Assembly (NCBI GenBank): GCA_945919295.1
Contig: CAMEJC010000007.1
Span: 1 to 38,119 of the forward strand
Length of the DNA stretch: 38,119 nucleotides
Direction: 5' to 3'
Origin: an uncultured Mycoplasmatota bacterium
GTDB lineage: Bacteria > Bacillota_I > Bacilli_A > RF39 > UBA660
Part shown: one piece after another, positions 1,270-35,124 of the stretch
Layout of the letters: each line of letters begins with the position of its first letter
Position numbering within the stretch: position 1 is the first letter of the stretch
Made by a program: the position numbers and the translations under genes
The notes under the pieces: generated by a model
What the model was told of the DNA's origin: nothing
Database searches by the model: none
The model's input: the letters and a program-made list of their open reading frames with translations, nothing else

Positions 1270-1495
1270 ATACCTCCAAAAAAAAGATGCCACCTTCAAA
1301 GGACGAATAAAATCCGTGGTACCACCTTATTTTATATTTATAATATACACTCTTTAGTTATAACGTAACAATCGTTTATACCTATTAGATATAACAGCTC
1401 CAGAACCATTTATAATAGTTTTTCTTTATCTAATTTCCACCAACATAGACTCTCTATAAAATACTCTTCTATTACTCTTTCCTTCTTCGCTTTCT
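1270..1495 (-). promoter_or_regulatory. T-box leader (tRNA-Met-sensing riboswitch) of dut-metG
   Basis: The minus strand carries a T-box sequence, AGGTGGTACCACGG (1314-1328), an antiterminator of the GGGUGGNACCGCG type. The bulge reads UGGU, which would pair with an ACCA acceptor end, as in tRNA-Met. Upstream, an AGAGAGTC...GTTGGTGGAAA segment resembles stem I (AG bulge and distal loop), and an AUG at 1409-1407 followed by G is a good specifier candidate. The competing terminator pairs GGTACCAC with GTGGCATC (7 of 8 pairs, about 1286-1323) and is followed by eight T residues (1285-1278). Uncharged tRNA-Met should promote read-through into dut-metG. The specifier assignment is inferred from position and from metG lying downstream. 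Confidence 0.88.
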
Positions 1496-1501
1496 AAAAA
1501 A

Positions 1502-10541: not shown

Positions 10542-12215
10542 TTATTTATATTCTATAATATTATCTCCCACTAAATCAATAAGTTCATCAACAGGAGTTT
10601 TTTCATTATGAAAAACATTATTAATTTTATGTTCCTTTATAGTGTACTTAATACCACTTCGAACATTATTAATATAATTTTTCTTTTCAATATTCCATTT
10701 TTCTATAGTAATTCCTACCACAAACAATTTATAACCAAACATCTTTTTAAATAAACTTTCAATAATTTTCGTATTTTCATTAATCCTATCAACGATTGAT
10801 GTTAATTCACTAGCAATAATAACGTATTTTTCAGATCCAACAACAACAGAAGAATCCTTAAGTAATCCAGAAACAATAGAAAATTGATCATCATAAATAT
10901 ATTCATCAATTAAATTCCAATTATTTTTAATATTCTCAAGAACTTCTTTTGAAGCTAAAGCTAAAGCATTATTAATTCTCACATTAATTTCTTCGTTAGA
11001 AAGATTACTTTCTTTTAAATTATCAATATTTTTAGTTTTAATTATTTCCCGGGAAATATTTTTATCTTTATCACAAACATTTGTTTCTAAATTATTATTA
11101 ATTGAATTAGAATTATTAATATTATCAGTAATTTCAATTTTATTAAAATATGTATCAGAAAACTTCAGTAATGAAGTCATAAAAAGAATCGAACCATTAG
11201 TAGACATTCTGATCATATTTTGCACATTATTCAAAGTTTCAATCAAATCGTAAAGTACCTTACTATCATATAATTCACTAATTTTTTTAATATTCGTATT
11301 TTTACTTTCAATAGTGGATAGAAGATTAGTATTTTTATACAGAATAACATCTTTAAGAAAAATAATCAATTCCTCAACAAATTTATTAATTTCCTTACCA
11401 TCTTCATCAAATCGATCTATAAACTCAATTACCTTAATTTTATCACTTGTAATAATACTTTTTAATAATTCAGACAAATCGTCATAAGAAACAGATCCAT
11501 TTACTTTATAAATATCATTTAAAGTAATATTAGAATTACTATAAGCAATTAATTGATCCAACATATTAATAGCATCTCTCATCCCACCATCAGCAAGTCT
11601 AGCTATTTCAAATAAAGCATCATCTTCAATAATGATATTTTCAATTTTAGAAATTTCTTTTAATCGATCAACAATCTGATCATCACTTATTTTAGAAAAT
11701 CTAAATTTTTGACATCTAGAAGCAATAGTGAGAGGAATCTTATGAGGTTCCGTAGTAGCAAGAATAAATATAACATGTGCTGGAGGTTCTTCTAATGTTT
11801 TAAGTAAAGCATTAAAAGCTTGATTAGTAAGCATATGAACTTCATCAATTATATAAACTTTATACTTAGAATTACTAGGAACTAAATTAACTTTATCACG
11901 CAATTCTCTAATTTCATCAACACCATTATTTGATGCTGCATCAATTTCAACAATATCACTGCTATTCAAAAAATTAAGACAACTATAACATTTACCACAA
12001 GGTTTACCATTATCTAGATGCTCACAATTAACCAATCTAGCAATTATTTTAGCAATAGTAGTTTTTCCAGTTCCTCTAGGACCACAAAAAAGATAAGCAT
12101 GAGAAACTTTATTACAATTAATAGCATTTTTAATAACAGTAACAACCTCTTTTTGTCCATAAACATCATCAAAATCAATTGGTCTATATTTCCTATATAA
12201 AGCTAAATAACTCAC
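10542..12215 (-). CDS. dnaX: DNA polymerase III subunit tau (and possibly gamma)
   Basis: The ATPase of the clamp loader, which also tethers polymerase. Walker A is CGPRGTGKTT (about residues 43-52), with a zinc module CEHLDNGKPCGKCYSC, Walker B IIDEVHML, sensor 1 region FILATTEPHKIP and the SRCQ arginine finger. The C-terminal third (after about 365) is Asn-rich and ends in a tau-like tail, so the gene is full length at 557 residues. The start is GTG at 12215 behind GGGAGG. No clear programmed-frameshift slippery site was found in the visible reading. A perfect Noc-type palindrome lies inside the gene at 11044-11057. A TATAAT at 12244-12239 may serve as its -10. Confidence 0.96.
   Translation of the reverse strand: MSYLALYRKYRPIDFDDVYGQKEVVTVIKNAINCNKVSHAYLFCGPRGTGKTTIAKIIARLVNCEHLDNGKPCGKCYSCLNFLNSSDIVEIDAASNNGVDEIRELRDKVNLVPSNSKYKVYIIDEVHMLTNQAFNALLKTLEEPPAHVIFILATTEPHKIPLTIASRCQKFRFSKISDDQIVDRLKEISKIENIIIEDDALFEIARLADGGMRDAINMLDQLIAYSNSNITLNDIYKVNGSVSYDDLSELLKSIITSDKIKVIEFIDRFDEDGKEINKFVEELIIFLKDVILYKNTNLLSTIESKNTNIKKISELYDSKVLYDLIETLNNVQNMIRMSTNGSILFMTSLLKFSDTYFNKIEITDNINNSNSINNNLETNVCDKDKNISREIIKTKNIDNLKESNLSNEEINVRINNALALASKEVLENIKNNWNLIDEYIYDDQFSIVSGLLKDSSVVVGSEKYVIIASELTSIVDRINENTKIIESLFKKMFGYKLFVVGITIEKWNIEKKNYINNVRSGIKYTIKEHKINNVFHNEKTPVDELIDLVGDNIIEYK
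11044..11057. promoter_or_regulatory. Noc-type binding site (NBS) inside dnaX
   Basis: ATTTCCCGGGAAAT, an exact match to the Bacillus Noc consensus, embedded in dnaX codons and flanked by T and A as in the 16-bp form. Binding is inferred from the match. Confidence 0.75.
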
Positions 12216-13452: not shown

Positions 13453-13502
13453 TTAAATAAATTTTGGTCCATCAACAATCTACTATATGAAATTAAAAGA
13501 AT

Positions 13503-13582
13503 AAAAAAGATACACACATTAATAAAGTGTTAAAGCTGCTATCTTCCGATCCTGACTTGGTTCCACTAATTAATGTTGTATC
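13503..13582 (-). ncRNA. ffs: Signal recognition particle RNA, minimal 4.5S type
   Basis: The RNA scaffold of the signal recognition particle, binding Ffh for co-translational membrane targeting. The minus strand reads CCAAGTCAGGATCGGAAG followed by ATAGCAGC, matching the universal SRP domain IV core (GUCAGG...CGGAAG...AGCAGC). The flanks pair as a long hairpin: GATACA-ACATTAAT-(T)AGTG with CACT(T)-ATTAATGT-GTGTATC. A T6 run at 13508-13503 ends it. At roughly 75-80 bases it lacks the Alu domain present in the 270-base Bacillus scRNA, although the tadA-dnaX neighbourhood is the same. The 5' end is inferred from the promoter. Confidence 0.93.
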
Positions 13583-13588
13583 AACAAC

Positions 13589-13617
13589 ATAATACCATAT
13601 TTTTTTAGATAATGCAA
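13589..13617 (-). promoter_or_regulatory. Promoter of the SRP RNA
   Basis: TTGCAT (13617-13612), a 17-base spacer ending TATGG, and TATTAT (13594-13589), placing the start at the first G of the RNA hairpin near 13582. The tmcAL promoter has the same two hexamers and spacing. Confidence 0.8.
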
Positions 13618-13754: not shown

Positions 13755-13768
13755 ATTTCCCGGGAAAT
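13755..13768. promoter_or_regulatory. Noc-type binding site (NBS), perfect
   Basis: ATTTCCCGGGAAAT, exact, inside a longer palindrome AATTATTTCCCGGGAAATAATT from 13751 to 13771. A half-site (TTTCCCAG) follows directly. Confidence 0.8.
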
Positions 13769-18394: not shown

Positions 18395-19501
18395 TTATTT
18401 CCCGGGAAATAATTTTCCATCTTTTATTTTATAAACATTTGCTTTCTTTCTTATATTTTCATTAATATTTTCAATATCAGTAGTAGTTATTATCGTTTGG
18501 ACATTTTTATTTAAATATTTCAATATATTATTTCTTTTATTTATATCTAATTCACTAAAAATATCATCTAATAAGAGAATAGGACTATCCTCAACAATAT
18601 TAGTAAATAATTTTACCTCTGCTAATTTCAACGCCAATACAGAACTTCTTATCTGTCCTTGACTACCAAATAATGACAAATTTTTATTATTTAAAGAAAA
18701 ATAAAAATCATCTCTATTTGGACCAATCAAAGTCATTTTATACTGTAACTCTTTACTAAAATTATTTTTTATTTTTTCTAATAACAAATTTTTAATATCA
18801 TCGTTGCCATTAGCAGTAATATTAGATACATAATTTAATTTTAAACCATTAATATTAGTAATAGAATAAAACATATCATCTAAATAATTATTAATATCAT
18901 CTATATATTTTTTTCTATACTTCCATATTTGAACAGATAAATCTGCGTATTTATTATTAAGTACCTCTAAATAACTGATATCACTATCTTTATTTATATT
19001 CATGATCTTTAAAAATTCATTTCTTTGTCTCAAAACAATGTTATAATCATTTAATATTTTTAAATAACTTCTATTTATTTGACTAATTTGAATATTAAAA
19101 TACTTTCTTCTTAAATTAGGACTTTCTTTAAAAATTCTTATACTATCAGCATTAAAAATAACAACATTCATTACTGAAATATAATCACTTAATTTTTTTA
19201 TTTCTTTTCCATTTATTTTAACTATTTTTCTACTTTCATTAAATAAAATATCTAAACTAATATTATTATTTTTACACTCTAAAAATCCTTTAATAATCGC
19301 AAATTTATTATTAAATTTTATTAAATTTTTATCACTAATAGATAAAAATGATTTTGTCACAGCAAGTACATAAATTGATTCTAATAAGTTAGTTTTACCT
19401 TGAGCATTATCTCCAATTATAATATTTAAATTATCATTAAAATTTAATTCTATATCATTATAATTTCGGTAATTTTTTAATTTAATTTTTTTTATTCTCA
19501 T
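18395..19501 (-). CDS. recF: DNA replication and repair protein RecF
   Basis: RecF is an SMC-like ATPase that helps RecR/RecO load RecA at gaps. Walker A is GDNAQGKTNLLESIY (about residues 30-44), the signature region is LFGSQGQIRS, and Walker B is ILLLDDIFSELD (about 311-322). It begins MRIKKIKLKNYRNY, the usual RecF opening. 368 residues, normal. Its last codons (FPGK, stop) coincide with an exact Noc-type palindrome. A likely -10 (TATAAT, 19571-19566) lies upstream with a six-residue reading frame in the leader. The S4-domain gene usually ahead of recF in Bacilli is absent; comK takes its place. Confidence 0.95.
   Translation of the reverse strand: MRIKKIKLKNYRNYNDIELNFNDNLNIIIGDNAQGKTNLLESIYVLAVTKSFLSISDKNLIKFNNKFAIIKGFLECKNNNISLDILFNESRKIVKINGKEIKKLSDYISVMNVVIFNADSIRIFKESPNLRRKYFNIQISQINRSYLKILNDYNIVLRQRNEFLKIMNINKDSDISYLEVLNNKYADLSVQIWKYRKKYIDDINNYLDDMFYSITNINGLKLNYVSNITANGNDDIKNLLLEKIKNNFSKELQYKMTLIGPNRDDFYFSLNNKNLSLFGSQGQIRSSVLALKLAEVKLFTNIVEDSPILLLDDIFSELDINKRNNILKYLNKNVQTIITTTDIENINENIRKKANVYKIKDGKLFPGK
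18397..18410. promoter_or_regulatory. Noc-type binding site (NBS) at the recF 3' end
   Basis: ATTTCCCGGGAAAT, exact, running through the final recF codons up to the stop. Confidence 0.78.
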
Positions 19502-31182: not shown

Positions 31183-33759
31183 TTACTTAGCTTCATACCA
31201 ATTATTGCCAATTTCAATATCAACATCAAGTGGCACCAATAATTTATATGAATCATTCATAGTATTGTAAACAATTTCTCTTACTGTGTCAATTTCATCT
31301 TTATAAACATTAAATATAAGTTCATCATGTACCTGAAGTAGCATCTTACTTTTAATATCATTTTCCTTAAATATTCTACTAATATCAACCATTGCCTTCT
31401 TCAAAATATCAGAAGCAGACCCTTGTATAGGTGTATTGAGAGCCATTCTTTCACCCATACTTCTAACAGCATAATTAGAACTCTTCAGTTCTTCAATAAT
31501 TCTTTTTCGATTCATAATAGTTTTAACATATCCATTAGATTTAGCTTCTTCTATTTCATTATTCATATAATCACGAACACCTGGATAAGTTTCAAAATAT
31601 TTATTTATAAAATCTTTAGCATCTTTAACTGAAATACCTAAATCTTCAGAAAGCCCATAACTACTGATACCATATAGAATACCAAAGTTAACAGCTTTCG
31701 CCTGTCTTCTCATATTTTTAGTAACTCCCTCTTCTGGAACTTTAAATATATCCATAGCTGTTTTTGTATGAATATCTTCGTTGTGTTTAAAAGCTTCAAT
31801 TAAATCATTAACTCCTGATAAGTGAGCAAACACCCTAAGTTCAATTTGTGAATAATCTGCAGACATAATTACTGAATTATTTTCGGGTAAAAATGCTTTT
31901 CTAATAAGTCTTCCATATTCACTACGCATTGGAATATTTTGCAAATTAGGTTCAACTGAAGAAAGCCTTCCAGTTCTTGTAAGCGTTTGCATATAAATAG
32001 TATGAATTTTATTATCATCTTTAATAGCAGCTATAATACCTTCAATATAAGTAGAATATAGTTTAGAAAGAGCTCTGTATTCAAGTATTTTGTTAACAAT
32101 TGGATAGTCAGATAATTTTTTTAAAATATCTATATCAGTAGCATATCCAATCTTATTTTTCTTAGCATATGGAAGTTTTAATTTATCAAAAAGTATTTCT
32201 CCTAACTGTTTAGGAGAATTAATATTAAATTCACATCCAGCATAATTATATATATCTTTTGTAATAAGTTCTAATTTAATCTTAATTTCTTCGCCCATTT
32301 CTTTAAGAATATTTTTATCTACTCTAATACCTTCAATTTCCATATTTCCAAGTACTTTAGCTAAAGGCATCTCAATATCATTAAATAAATTAATAACTTC
32401 TTCTTTGTTCATTTCATCATATAAATAATCTTTCGTAGTCCATATAAACTTAGCTTTTAATATAGCTCTTTTAGCCTTTTCTTGATCCGTAAGTTGTTCT
32501 TTTTTATCATAAGTAGGAATATCTATATCCATCTTACTAGCTAAATAACAAATATCATCTTTTACTTCATAATTAAGTAAATAAGCACTAATCATGGTAT
32601 CAAAAATAACATTATTTATCTTAATATTATATTTATTAAATAATACAAGTAACTTTTTATAATCATAAGTATATTTCTTAACTTTATTATCTAGTATATC
32701 TAAATTATTAGAAAGCATCTCATATGGTATATAACAAGATATATCATCATTATATAAAGCCATACCAATTATTTCAGAATCATGATAATTACCATAAGTA
32801 GTATCCAAATATATTGCTACATCCTTATCTAAATTAATATTATCAACATCAGTAATAATAGTAAAACTATTAGTATTCCCAGTATCAATATTACTATTAT
32901 TACCTGTCTTTTTCATAAGGGAATAAAAATCAAGTTTTTTATATAATTCAAATAAATCATTGGTATTAATATCCTTATATAAAAGATCATCAAAAGTAAT
33001 ATTAAGAGGAACTTCTCTATATATAGTAACTAAATCTTTACTATAATAAGCATCATCTTTACCATCAATTAATTTAGTTTGTGTAGCACCTTTAATATTA
33101 TCTATATTTTCATATATTCCATCAATTGAACCATATTCTTTAAGAAGTTTAATAGCTCCCTTTTCTCCAATACCTTTAACACCAGGTATATTATCCGAAG
33201 CATCACCCATTAATGCTTTTAAATCAATCATTTTAATAGGATCAAAACCATAAGTATCAAAAAATGTATTTTTATCCATCATAATATGATCTTTTGTCTT
33301 TAATAATTTAACAGTAGTTTCATCACTAATTAGTTGAAGCAAATCTTTATCGCTACTTACAATAAGAGCTTCATACTTAGGATCTTTGTCACACCATAAA
33401 GATATAGTTCCAATAATATCATCCGCTTCGTATCCTTCACACTCTAGATATTTAATTCCCATAGCGGTAAGTATTTCTTTAGCAATTGGAAATTGTATTT
33501 TCAGATCATCAGGAGTCTCTTTTCTTCCATCTTTATATCTTTCATATTTTTCATGTCTAAAAGTTTTACCAATATCAAAAGCAACCATCATATATTTAGG
33601 TTTTTCTTCAGCAATAATTTTGTTAATCATATTAACAAAACCATATAAACCATTCGTCGGAAATCCCTCACTATTTCGCATAATATTACCAGTATATGCC
33701 GTTGCATAATAACTTCTAAATAAAAGATTATTTCCATCTACAAGTACAACTTTTTCCAT
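31183..33759 (-). CDS. polA: DNA polymerase I
   Basis: Fills gaps and removes RNA primers. Residues 1-290 are the 5' nuclease (VDGNNLLFRSYYA, CEGYEADDIIGT, SSDKDLLQL, GDASDNIPGVKGIGEKGA). The middle domain, about 300-460, has the 3'-5' exonuclease fold but lacks its acidic motif (YLDTTYGN in place of D-x-E), so proofreading is probably absent, as in Bacillus. The polymerase domain has DYSQIELR (motif A), RRQAKAVNFGILYG (motif B) and QVHDELIF (motif C). 858 residues. ATG at 33759 behind GGTGATATT. It forms an operon with mutM. Confidence 0.97.
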   Translation of the reverse strand: MEKVVLVDGNNLLFRSYYATAYTGNIMRNSEGFPTNGLYGFVNMINKIIAEEKPKYMMVAFDIGKTFRHEKYERYKDGRKETPDDLKIQFPIAKEILTAMGIKYLECEGYEADDIIGTISLWCDKDPKYEALIVSSDKDLLQLISDETTVKLLKTKDHIMMDKNTFFDTYGFDPIKMIDLKALMGDASDNIPGVKGIGEKGAIKLLKEYGSIDGIYENIDNIKGATQTKLIDGKDDAYYSKDLVTIYREVPLNITFDDLLYKDINTNDLFELYKKLDFYSLMKKTGNNSNIDTGNTNSFTIITDVDNINLDKDVAIYLDTTYGNYHDSEIIGMALYNDDISCYIPYEMLSNNLDILDNKVKKYTYDYKKLLVLFNKYNIKINNVIFDTMISAYLLNYEVKDDICYLASKMDIDIPTYDKKEQLTDQEKAKRAILKAKFIWTTKDYLYDEMNKEEVINLFNDIEMPLAKVLGNMEIEGIRVDKNILKEMGEEIKIKLELITKDIYNYAGCEFNINSPKQLGEILFDKLKLPYAKKNKIGYATDIDILKKLSDYPIVNKILEYRALSKLYSTYIEGIIAAIKDDNKIHTIYMQTLTRTGRLSSVEPNLQNIPMRSEYGRLIRKAFLPENNSVIMSADYSQIELRVFAHLSGVNDLIEAFKHNEDIHTKTAMDIFKVPEEGVTKNMRRQAKAVNFGILYGISSYGLSEDLGISVKDAKDFINKYFETYPGVRDYMNNEIEEAKSNGYVKTIMNRKRIIEELKSSNYAVRSMGERMALNTPIQGSASDILKKAMVDISRIFKENDIKSKMLLQVHDELIFNVYKDEIDTVREIVYNTMNDSYKLLVPLDVDIEIGNNWYEAK

Positions 33760-33786: not shown

Positions 33787-33815
33787 ATTATACTAAAAAA
33801 AAGACTTAAAATAAA
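33787..33815 (-). promoter_or_regulatory. polA promoter
   Basis: TTTATT (33815-33810), 17 bases, TATAAT (33792-33787) on the minus strand. The -35 lies inside the upstream terminator hairpin. Confidence 0.62.
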
Positions 33816-33821
33816 GTCTTT
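33795..33821 (-). terminator. Terminator of the accessory operon
   Basis: AAAGACTT-tatttt-AAGTCTTT followed by a T8 tract on the minus strand. Confidence 0.83.
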
Positions 33822-33843
33822 CTATGTTATTTTTTGTTAGTTC

Positions 33844-33923
33844 GAGCCTATAGTCTCTCACTATCATTAAAGCCTAAGGTCTTTAATGAGTAATATGAAG
33901 CCTATAAAATAGTCTTCATATTA
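33844..33923. repeat. Three tandem hairpins with a shared core
   Basis: On the + strand: GAG-CCTATAGT-CTC (33844-33857), TCATTAAAG-CCTAAGGT-CTTTAATGA (33864-33889) and TAATATGAAG-CCTATAAAATAGT-CTTCATATTA (33891-33923). The outer stems differ in sequence and grow from 3 to 10 pairs, while the core CCTA...(A/G)GT stays. They lie in the 3' region of the ASCH gene, before the terminator. Changes that keep pairing argue for a structural role, as RNA or a protein-binding site. Family unknown. Confidence 0.55.
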
Positions 33924-33941: not shown

Positions 33942-34283
33942 TCATAATAATTCAAACCCTATACCAATGATTTTATGATTATCAACTTCATCTTTACCAA
34001 ATATATCATACATACCTTTAGTAAAAGTTTCTTTATTATATTTTCCAGCATTCATATCATTACAATATCTATTCATAAGATCATTAATATCATTATAAAT
34101 AGTCAAACTAGTAACTCTAACTAATATATATTTACTCTCATCATTAATATTTTTAAATTTAATAATATCATTAATTTTAATTTTACTAGATTTCTCATTA
34201 TATAATCTAATTTCTACTTTTTTAGTACCATTAATCATATCATTTAGAACTTCTTCATAAACACGATATTCAAAATTATTCAT
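33942..34283 (-). CDS. ASCH-domain protein
   Basis: A 113-residue single-domain protein. The stretch INGTKKVEIRLYNEKSSKIK followed by NDIIKF near residues 18-42 is the typical ASCH pattern (K-x-E-x-R and G/N-D-x-I-x-F). ASCH domains have a PUA-like fold and bind RNA; one relative, YqfB of E. coli, deacetylates N4-acetylcytidine. ATG at 34283 behind AAAGGTG. Stop is TGA, unlike the core genes. It is the last gene of the accessory set. Confidence 0.75.
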   Translation of the reverse strand: MNNFEYRVYEEVLNDMINGTKKVEIRLYNEKSSKIKINDIIKFKNINDESKYILVRVTSLTIYNDINDLMNRYCNDMNAGKYNKETFTKGMYDIFGKDEVDNHKIIGIGFELL

Positions 34284-34476: not shown

Positions 34477-35124
34477 TTACTTACTCTTAATGTTTTTAAC
34501 ATATAATTTTGTTTCTTCATATATTCTAGGTGTTTGTTCTTCTAGTAAATTTTTATCTTTTAATAGTTTTAAAATATATTCTTTATCATAAGTATCAAAT
34601 AAATATTTTCCTATAGTATAATAATTAATATAGTCTACATATCCATTTAATAATTCATCTAAGGTGCAATTAATATATAACTCATAATTATTATACTGAT
34701 TAGACAATATAATAGCTAAGGCTTCGCCATACCATCTTAAAGTTTTTTTACTATATGTTGAATGACATATATGAACAAATTCATGAATTAAACACTCAAG
34801 CATATTTTCTATATTATCTTTACTATGACCTTTACATTTTTTTCTTTCTTCTAATGTTAAAATGTGAATTTCTCTATCGATATAATATGTCCTTGCAACT
34901 ACCAATTCTTCTTCATCAATATTAAGCTTATTTTTAGTATAATTTCTAAAATCAGTAACATTATTTCAAAGTTTTATTGTAATCTTTTTTTCTAAATTAT
35001 CTAAATTGAAAAAATTCATAATATCTTGATAACTTTTATCTAATGTACTGACAAATAAATCAATATATTTTTTATTTTTCTCATCGTATTCAATTATATA
35101 AAAATCACTTTCGTATTTTTTCAT
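34477..35124 (-). pseudogene. HEXXH metallopeptidase-like gene with in-frame TGA
   Basis: The frame starts at the ATG at 35124 (behind AGGAAG) and encodes about 215 residues. Codon 53 (34968-34966) is TGA; reading resumes in frame without any shift. The interrupted site reads TIKL-stop-NNVTDF, where Trp would be natural, so a TGG to TGA change is the simplest cause. The second part holds HEFVHICHS, a gluzincin-type HEXXH zinc motif, and LRWYGEALA, whose Glu could be the third ligand. No signal peptide or membrane segment, so it would be cytosolic. Restart inside (TTG at 34905) is possible but lacks a ribosome site. Family not recognised; a recent nonsense mutation, read-through or sequence error are the options. 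Confidence 0.6.

Follow-up and report, generated by a model that had tools for sequence, protein, structure and literature searches.

A short dispersed hairpin repeat with a constant loop core and variable stems in a genus of uncultured gut bacteria

Three hairpins located upstream of polA in a 38,119-nucleotide stretch of DNA from an uncultured Mycoplasmatota bacterium (the whole stretch analyzed, here called the window) together make up a single copy of a short, non-coding dispersed repeat that is confined to one genus of uncultured gut bacteria. Taken together, the anatomy, pairing and placement of its copies suggest that this genus-restricted repeat is probably a non-autonomous palindromic DNA element acting like the REP/BIME elements.

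Structure and surroundings of the array

The array spans positions 33839 to 33923 of the window, and the minus strand is the informative one. H1 (33891 to 33923, minus strand) presents a perfect 10-bp stem (TAATATGAAG-ACTATTTTATAGG-CTTCATATTA), and its core, ACTATTTTATAGG, contains an A.G mismatch and a CTAT/ATAG inner stem. H2 (33864 to 33889, minus strand) has a perfect 9-bp stem (TCATTAAAG-ACCTTAGG-CTTTAATGA) around the core ACCTTAGG. Both are R1 matches in the covariance search, with 28.8 bits for H1 and 39.1 bits for H2. The terminal hairpin, H3 (33839 to 33862, minus strand), reads AGT-GA-GAG-ACTATAGG-CTC-GA-ACT and is composed of an outer 3-bp stem (AGT/ACT), a tandem GA/GA internal loop, a GAG/CTC inner stem and the core ACTATAGG; this architecture recurs in other three-hairpin copies. 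The sequence contains the three units with 10, 9 and 3 continuous Watson-Crick pairs reported in the first-pass annotation, to which the outer stem of H3 and its tandem G.A internal loop are an addition. All three hairpins share the core A-C-loop-G-G, where the A stands opposite the last G as a purine mismatch adjoining the inner C-G pair, which closes a loop, usually YNNA. The folding energy of the array is better than that of 200 out of 200 dinucleotide shuffles on both strands, as RNA (z of −4.2 and −5.2 for the two strands) and as DNA (z of −7.5 and −6.7). The three hairpins are genuine and well outside what chance would produce.

The array lies between a gene for a 113-amino-acid ASCH-domain protein (33942 to 34283, minus strand; Pfam PF04266, E value of 8.7e-5) and the downstream polA, encoding DNA polymerase I (31183 to 33759, minus strand; assigned with Pfam), both of which are neighbors outside the element. 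This position agrees with the earlier description. The terminator-like T-rich hairpin at about 33798 to 33821 does not belong to the array, because it also precedes polA in a species where the array is absent (G005).

Copies of the repeat and their sites

The core AGACYWTAGGCT occurs eight times in the genome of the window, versus zero times for the reversed control pattern. A covariance model built from ten hairpins retrieved 18 distinct hairpins at no fewer than 13 sites in this genome, and each of the 11 genomes of the genus gave between 1 and 52 matches, the 52 hairpin matches being in G009. The units thus recur in relatives and their stems covary, which bears out the earlier proposal of a conserved loop presented on hairpins with maintained stems. 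When 143 further genera of this family were searched, a single covariance match (E value of 0.0028) appeared, inside a coding region. More distant genomes gave two weak matches, both terminator-like, and the distant matches in G011, G039 and G124 were rejected as either coding sequence or ordinary terminators. Among named genomes, a scan with a DNA pattern gave matches solely in MAGs of uncultured Bacilli, Bacillales or Tenericutes. In IMG/VR, no match was found for the commonest H1 pattern, which argues against a viral source, and comparison with the Rfam covariance models gave no match to a known RNA family.

Approximately 70 copies were read for their anatomy. The unit measures about 55 to 90 bp. 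Its first hairpin has A/T ends, and its last is closed by C..G and in many cases contains purine mismatches (G.A, G.G or tandem GA); a middle hairpin may stand between them. Two layouts are found among these copies. The two-hairpin layout consists of a 10-bp hairpin with A/T ends and a final 9-bp hairpin with C first and G last, whereas in three-hairpin copies the purine mismatches of the last hairpin (G.A, G.G, A.A or tandem GA) are situated four to five positions from the core. Stems end abruptly, after 9 or 10 pairs; most are A/T-rich, and no T-run follows them. The ends of the element are defined by near-identical copies in unrelated flanks (L046/L047 and L052 to L055).

The copies are intergenic and tend to sit near gene 3' ends, with few in divergent gaps. 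Convergent gaps represent 8 of the 53 gaps with copies versus 6 of the 102 without. The orientation is mixed, with 17 sense versus 22 antisense copies in co-directional gaps. The positions upstream of the repeat are A/T-rich, and a search for a promoter hexamer at a fixed distance upstream found none, the best position reaching 9 of 45, a value matched in shuffles.

Occupancy of orthologous sites differs among species. Orthologues of polA are found in all 11 genomes, and the site next to it is filled in two of the 11 species, G000 and G009. The parA site is filled in G000, G009, G003 and G005, retains a remnant in G010 and is empty in G002, G006 and G001, and the rnjA site is filled in G000, G005, G008 and G009 and empty in G002 and G006. 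Target-site duplications were not visible by eye at L046/L047, a comparison made without an exact empty site, and a fixed insertion target was not found among the copies. The genes between adjacent copies (L083 and L044) are ordinary chromosomal genes, which excludes these as an autonomous parent element. Retro-copying is disfavored by the lack of a reverse transcriptase (PF00078) in the copy-bearing genomes G005, G006, G008, G010, G001, G002 and G004, several of the genomes being incomplete.

From just before H1 to the start of polA, G000 and G009 are identical, and polA itself differs; either recent transfer or host selection could account for this identical block. The two genomes differ in the gene upstream of polA, which is the ASCH gene in G000 and the end of another gene in G009 (L117), and the breakpoint is immediately before the hairpin array. 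It is possible that the repeat marks a point of rearrangement. In G004, the stretch immediately before polA (L126) contains CTTTTCAAAAGATTACTTTTGAAAAGCGAGCGAAGCGATAATGC, in which a mini-hairpin of the GCGAAGC type follows a hairpin; it is perhaps a relic or another subfamily of the repeat.

Pairing and strand polarity of the stems

In a model-based alignment, 99.7% of the stem cells are paired, 232 cells are double-changed, and the covariation score is 0.641, versus 0.142 in shuffles. Distinct first stems show 124 double versus 1 single change and distinct second stems 65 versus 0, and the pooled ratio of 189 double changes to 1 single change is to some degree inflated, because the searches favor well-paired copies while decayed copies with single changes exist (L084 and the parA site of G010). 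Copies differ on average at about four of nine stem pairs, and at one orthologous site the stems differ across species with pairing retained. Cores are flipped within or beside arrays at L005, as compared with its orthologue L069, and at L090.

G-U pairs account for 0.3% of cells in the repeat stems, versus 6.4% in the SRP RNA of the same genus (16 of 249 cells). The counts of G.T versus A.C were 0 versus 3, 3 versus 4 and 5 versus 5, depending on the threshold, and G.T was not commoner than A.C except at the loosest threshold. The inner stems of H3 contain a few G.U pairs and no A.C, which could indicate RNA-level selection at that place. In strict hairpins, the mismatch adjoining the core is A.G in 91 cases and A.A in 10, and the position is paired in about six. 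As this purine mismatch beside the core is nearly constant, the element has a strand.

Explanations for the repeat

In the REP-like explanation that we favor, the strand with the purine mismatches would fold during replication or another single-stranded phase, and the folded core (GAC..GGC with A.G) would be recognized by a putative enzyme that spread the repeat, selection on this recognition preserving the core. The arms would stay complementary mainly through template switching during replication, by which both arms are altered in one event. At most sites the repeat would have no essential host function, settling close to gene ends and sparing promoters. Polymerase template switching has two reported outcomes, homogenization of the arms and inversion of the spacer (PMC8604942), and it has been proposed to maintain paired stems without G-U intermediates (PMC8794818). 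If this account is carried over to the repeat, template switching probably keeps its arms identical, and the flipped loops would have the same origin. Since many hairpins changed both arms together with almost no intermediates, the family offers unusually clean natural material for weighing template switching against stepwise compensation in stem pairing. It also points to a putative hairpin-recognizing activity in this genus of uncultured gut bacteria.

REPs are mobilized by the Y1 transposase family. Like REP/BIME elements and REPINs (the REPtron with TnpA_REP/RAYT), the copies described here are short intergenic palindromes, present in tens of copies, clustered and non-autonomous, that would act as folded single strands. 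In REPs a conserved stem mismatch sets the strand polarity (PMC8266576), as the A.G or A.A mismatch does here. For E. coli REPs, the stem mismatch is a requirement and processing is limited to one strand (PMC8266576), so the two share a similar logic of design. However, REP families share a stem consensus and have a 5' GTAG adjoining the stem, whereas here the stems vary freely around a constant loop core and no GTAG is found at the foot. In addition, the cognate Y1 TnpA_REP (PF01797) was found in G003 only, and not in G000 or in G009 with its 52 hairpin matches, among 11 genomes that are incomplete. Membership of the REPtron was rejected on these three grounds.

Other known systems share single traits with the repeat. 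The streptococcal BOX elements of low-GC Gram-positive bacteria are modular intergenic arrays of two or three stem-loops without an encoded mobilizer, a description that fits the present arrays, but BOX modules are conserved in sequence. Integron attC sites fold as single strands, with unpaired bases that select the strand and a stem of variable sequence. In attC, however, the terminal core sites are constant and the tip varies, whereas the repeat has a constant tip on variable arms; cassette arrays were not noticed. MITEs are likewise small, dispersed and non-autonomous, but the element described here is not spanned by a terminal inverted repeat, and target-site duplications were not seen. 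It is conceivable, if doubtful, that the repeat represents a new class of mobile DNA, in which a constant loop (GAC-YNNA-GGC) with a purine mismatch is carried on stems of free sequence, is handled by a hairpin-processing enzyme outside the REP, IS200/IS605 and integron systems, and has its arms rewritten whole.

The first-pass annotation had offered a small RNA, an mRNA 3' element or a binding site for the ASCH protein. A structured RNA, either a small RNA or an mRNA element whose GAC..GGC loop is read by a protein, with the copies forming a regulon or a small RNA family, is unlikely. It would be consistent with the strong covariation, the tandem G.A and a few G.U pairs of H3, the purine mismatches favoring the folding of one strand and the block before polA that is identical between G000 and G009. 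However, strong covariation by itself is no proof of a functional RNA, and H1 and H2 are nearly devoid of G.U pairs, G.T being about as rare as A.C in a genus whose SRP RNA has 6.4% G-U. Copies are also decayed or missing at orthologous sites, no Rfam family matches, and the orientation shows no bias relative to the flanking transcripts. A small RNA with its own promoter is not supported, as no positioned −10 was found.

The unbiased orientation of the copies also speaks against an mRNA 3' element with a constant orientation to the surrounding genes. An element at mRNA 3' ends that works in either orientation, as a stabilizer or a transcription boundary of whatever origin, would fit the position of the copies near gene 3' ends, their rarity in divergent gaps and their share of convergent gaps. 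Such an element is nevertheless quite improbable: the A/T-rich stems lack a following T-run, it would leave unexplained why the core and H3 have a strand polarity, and many copies can decay or be lost. That the hairpins are the binding site of the adjoining ASCH protein is extremely improbable. The adjacency that suggests it is seen in this window only, and in G009 an array identical in position stands at polA with no ASCH gene alongside. The copies nearest to the two other ASCH genes of the genome are about 1.8 and 3.8 kb away, and G001 and G008, both incomplete genomes, have copies but no ASCH match. The ASCH target was discarded on the G009 polA site and the ASCH gene positions in this genome.

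Other features of the window and the genus were recorded. The perfect palindrome TTTCCCGGGAAA occurs three times in the window (11045 to 11056, 13756 to 13767 and 18398 to 18409), versus zero expected in shuffles, and several species of the genus also have it upstream of polA; it may be a regulator site or a second repeat. A 215-codon frame (34480 to 35124, minus strand), which starts with MKKYESDF and contains a zinc-peptidase-like HEFVH motif, is broken by one in-frame TGA after IKL and is a pseudogene or a sequence error. The long genes of the window need no reading of TGA. The window also contains a T-box leader (1296 to 1496, minus strand) and a bacterial small SRP RNA (13494 to 13592, minus strand).
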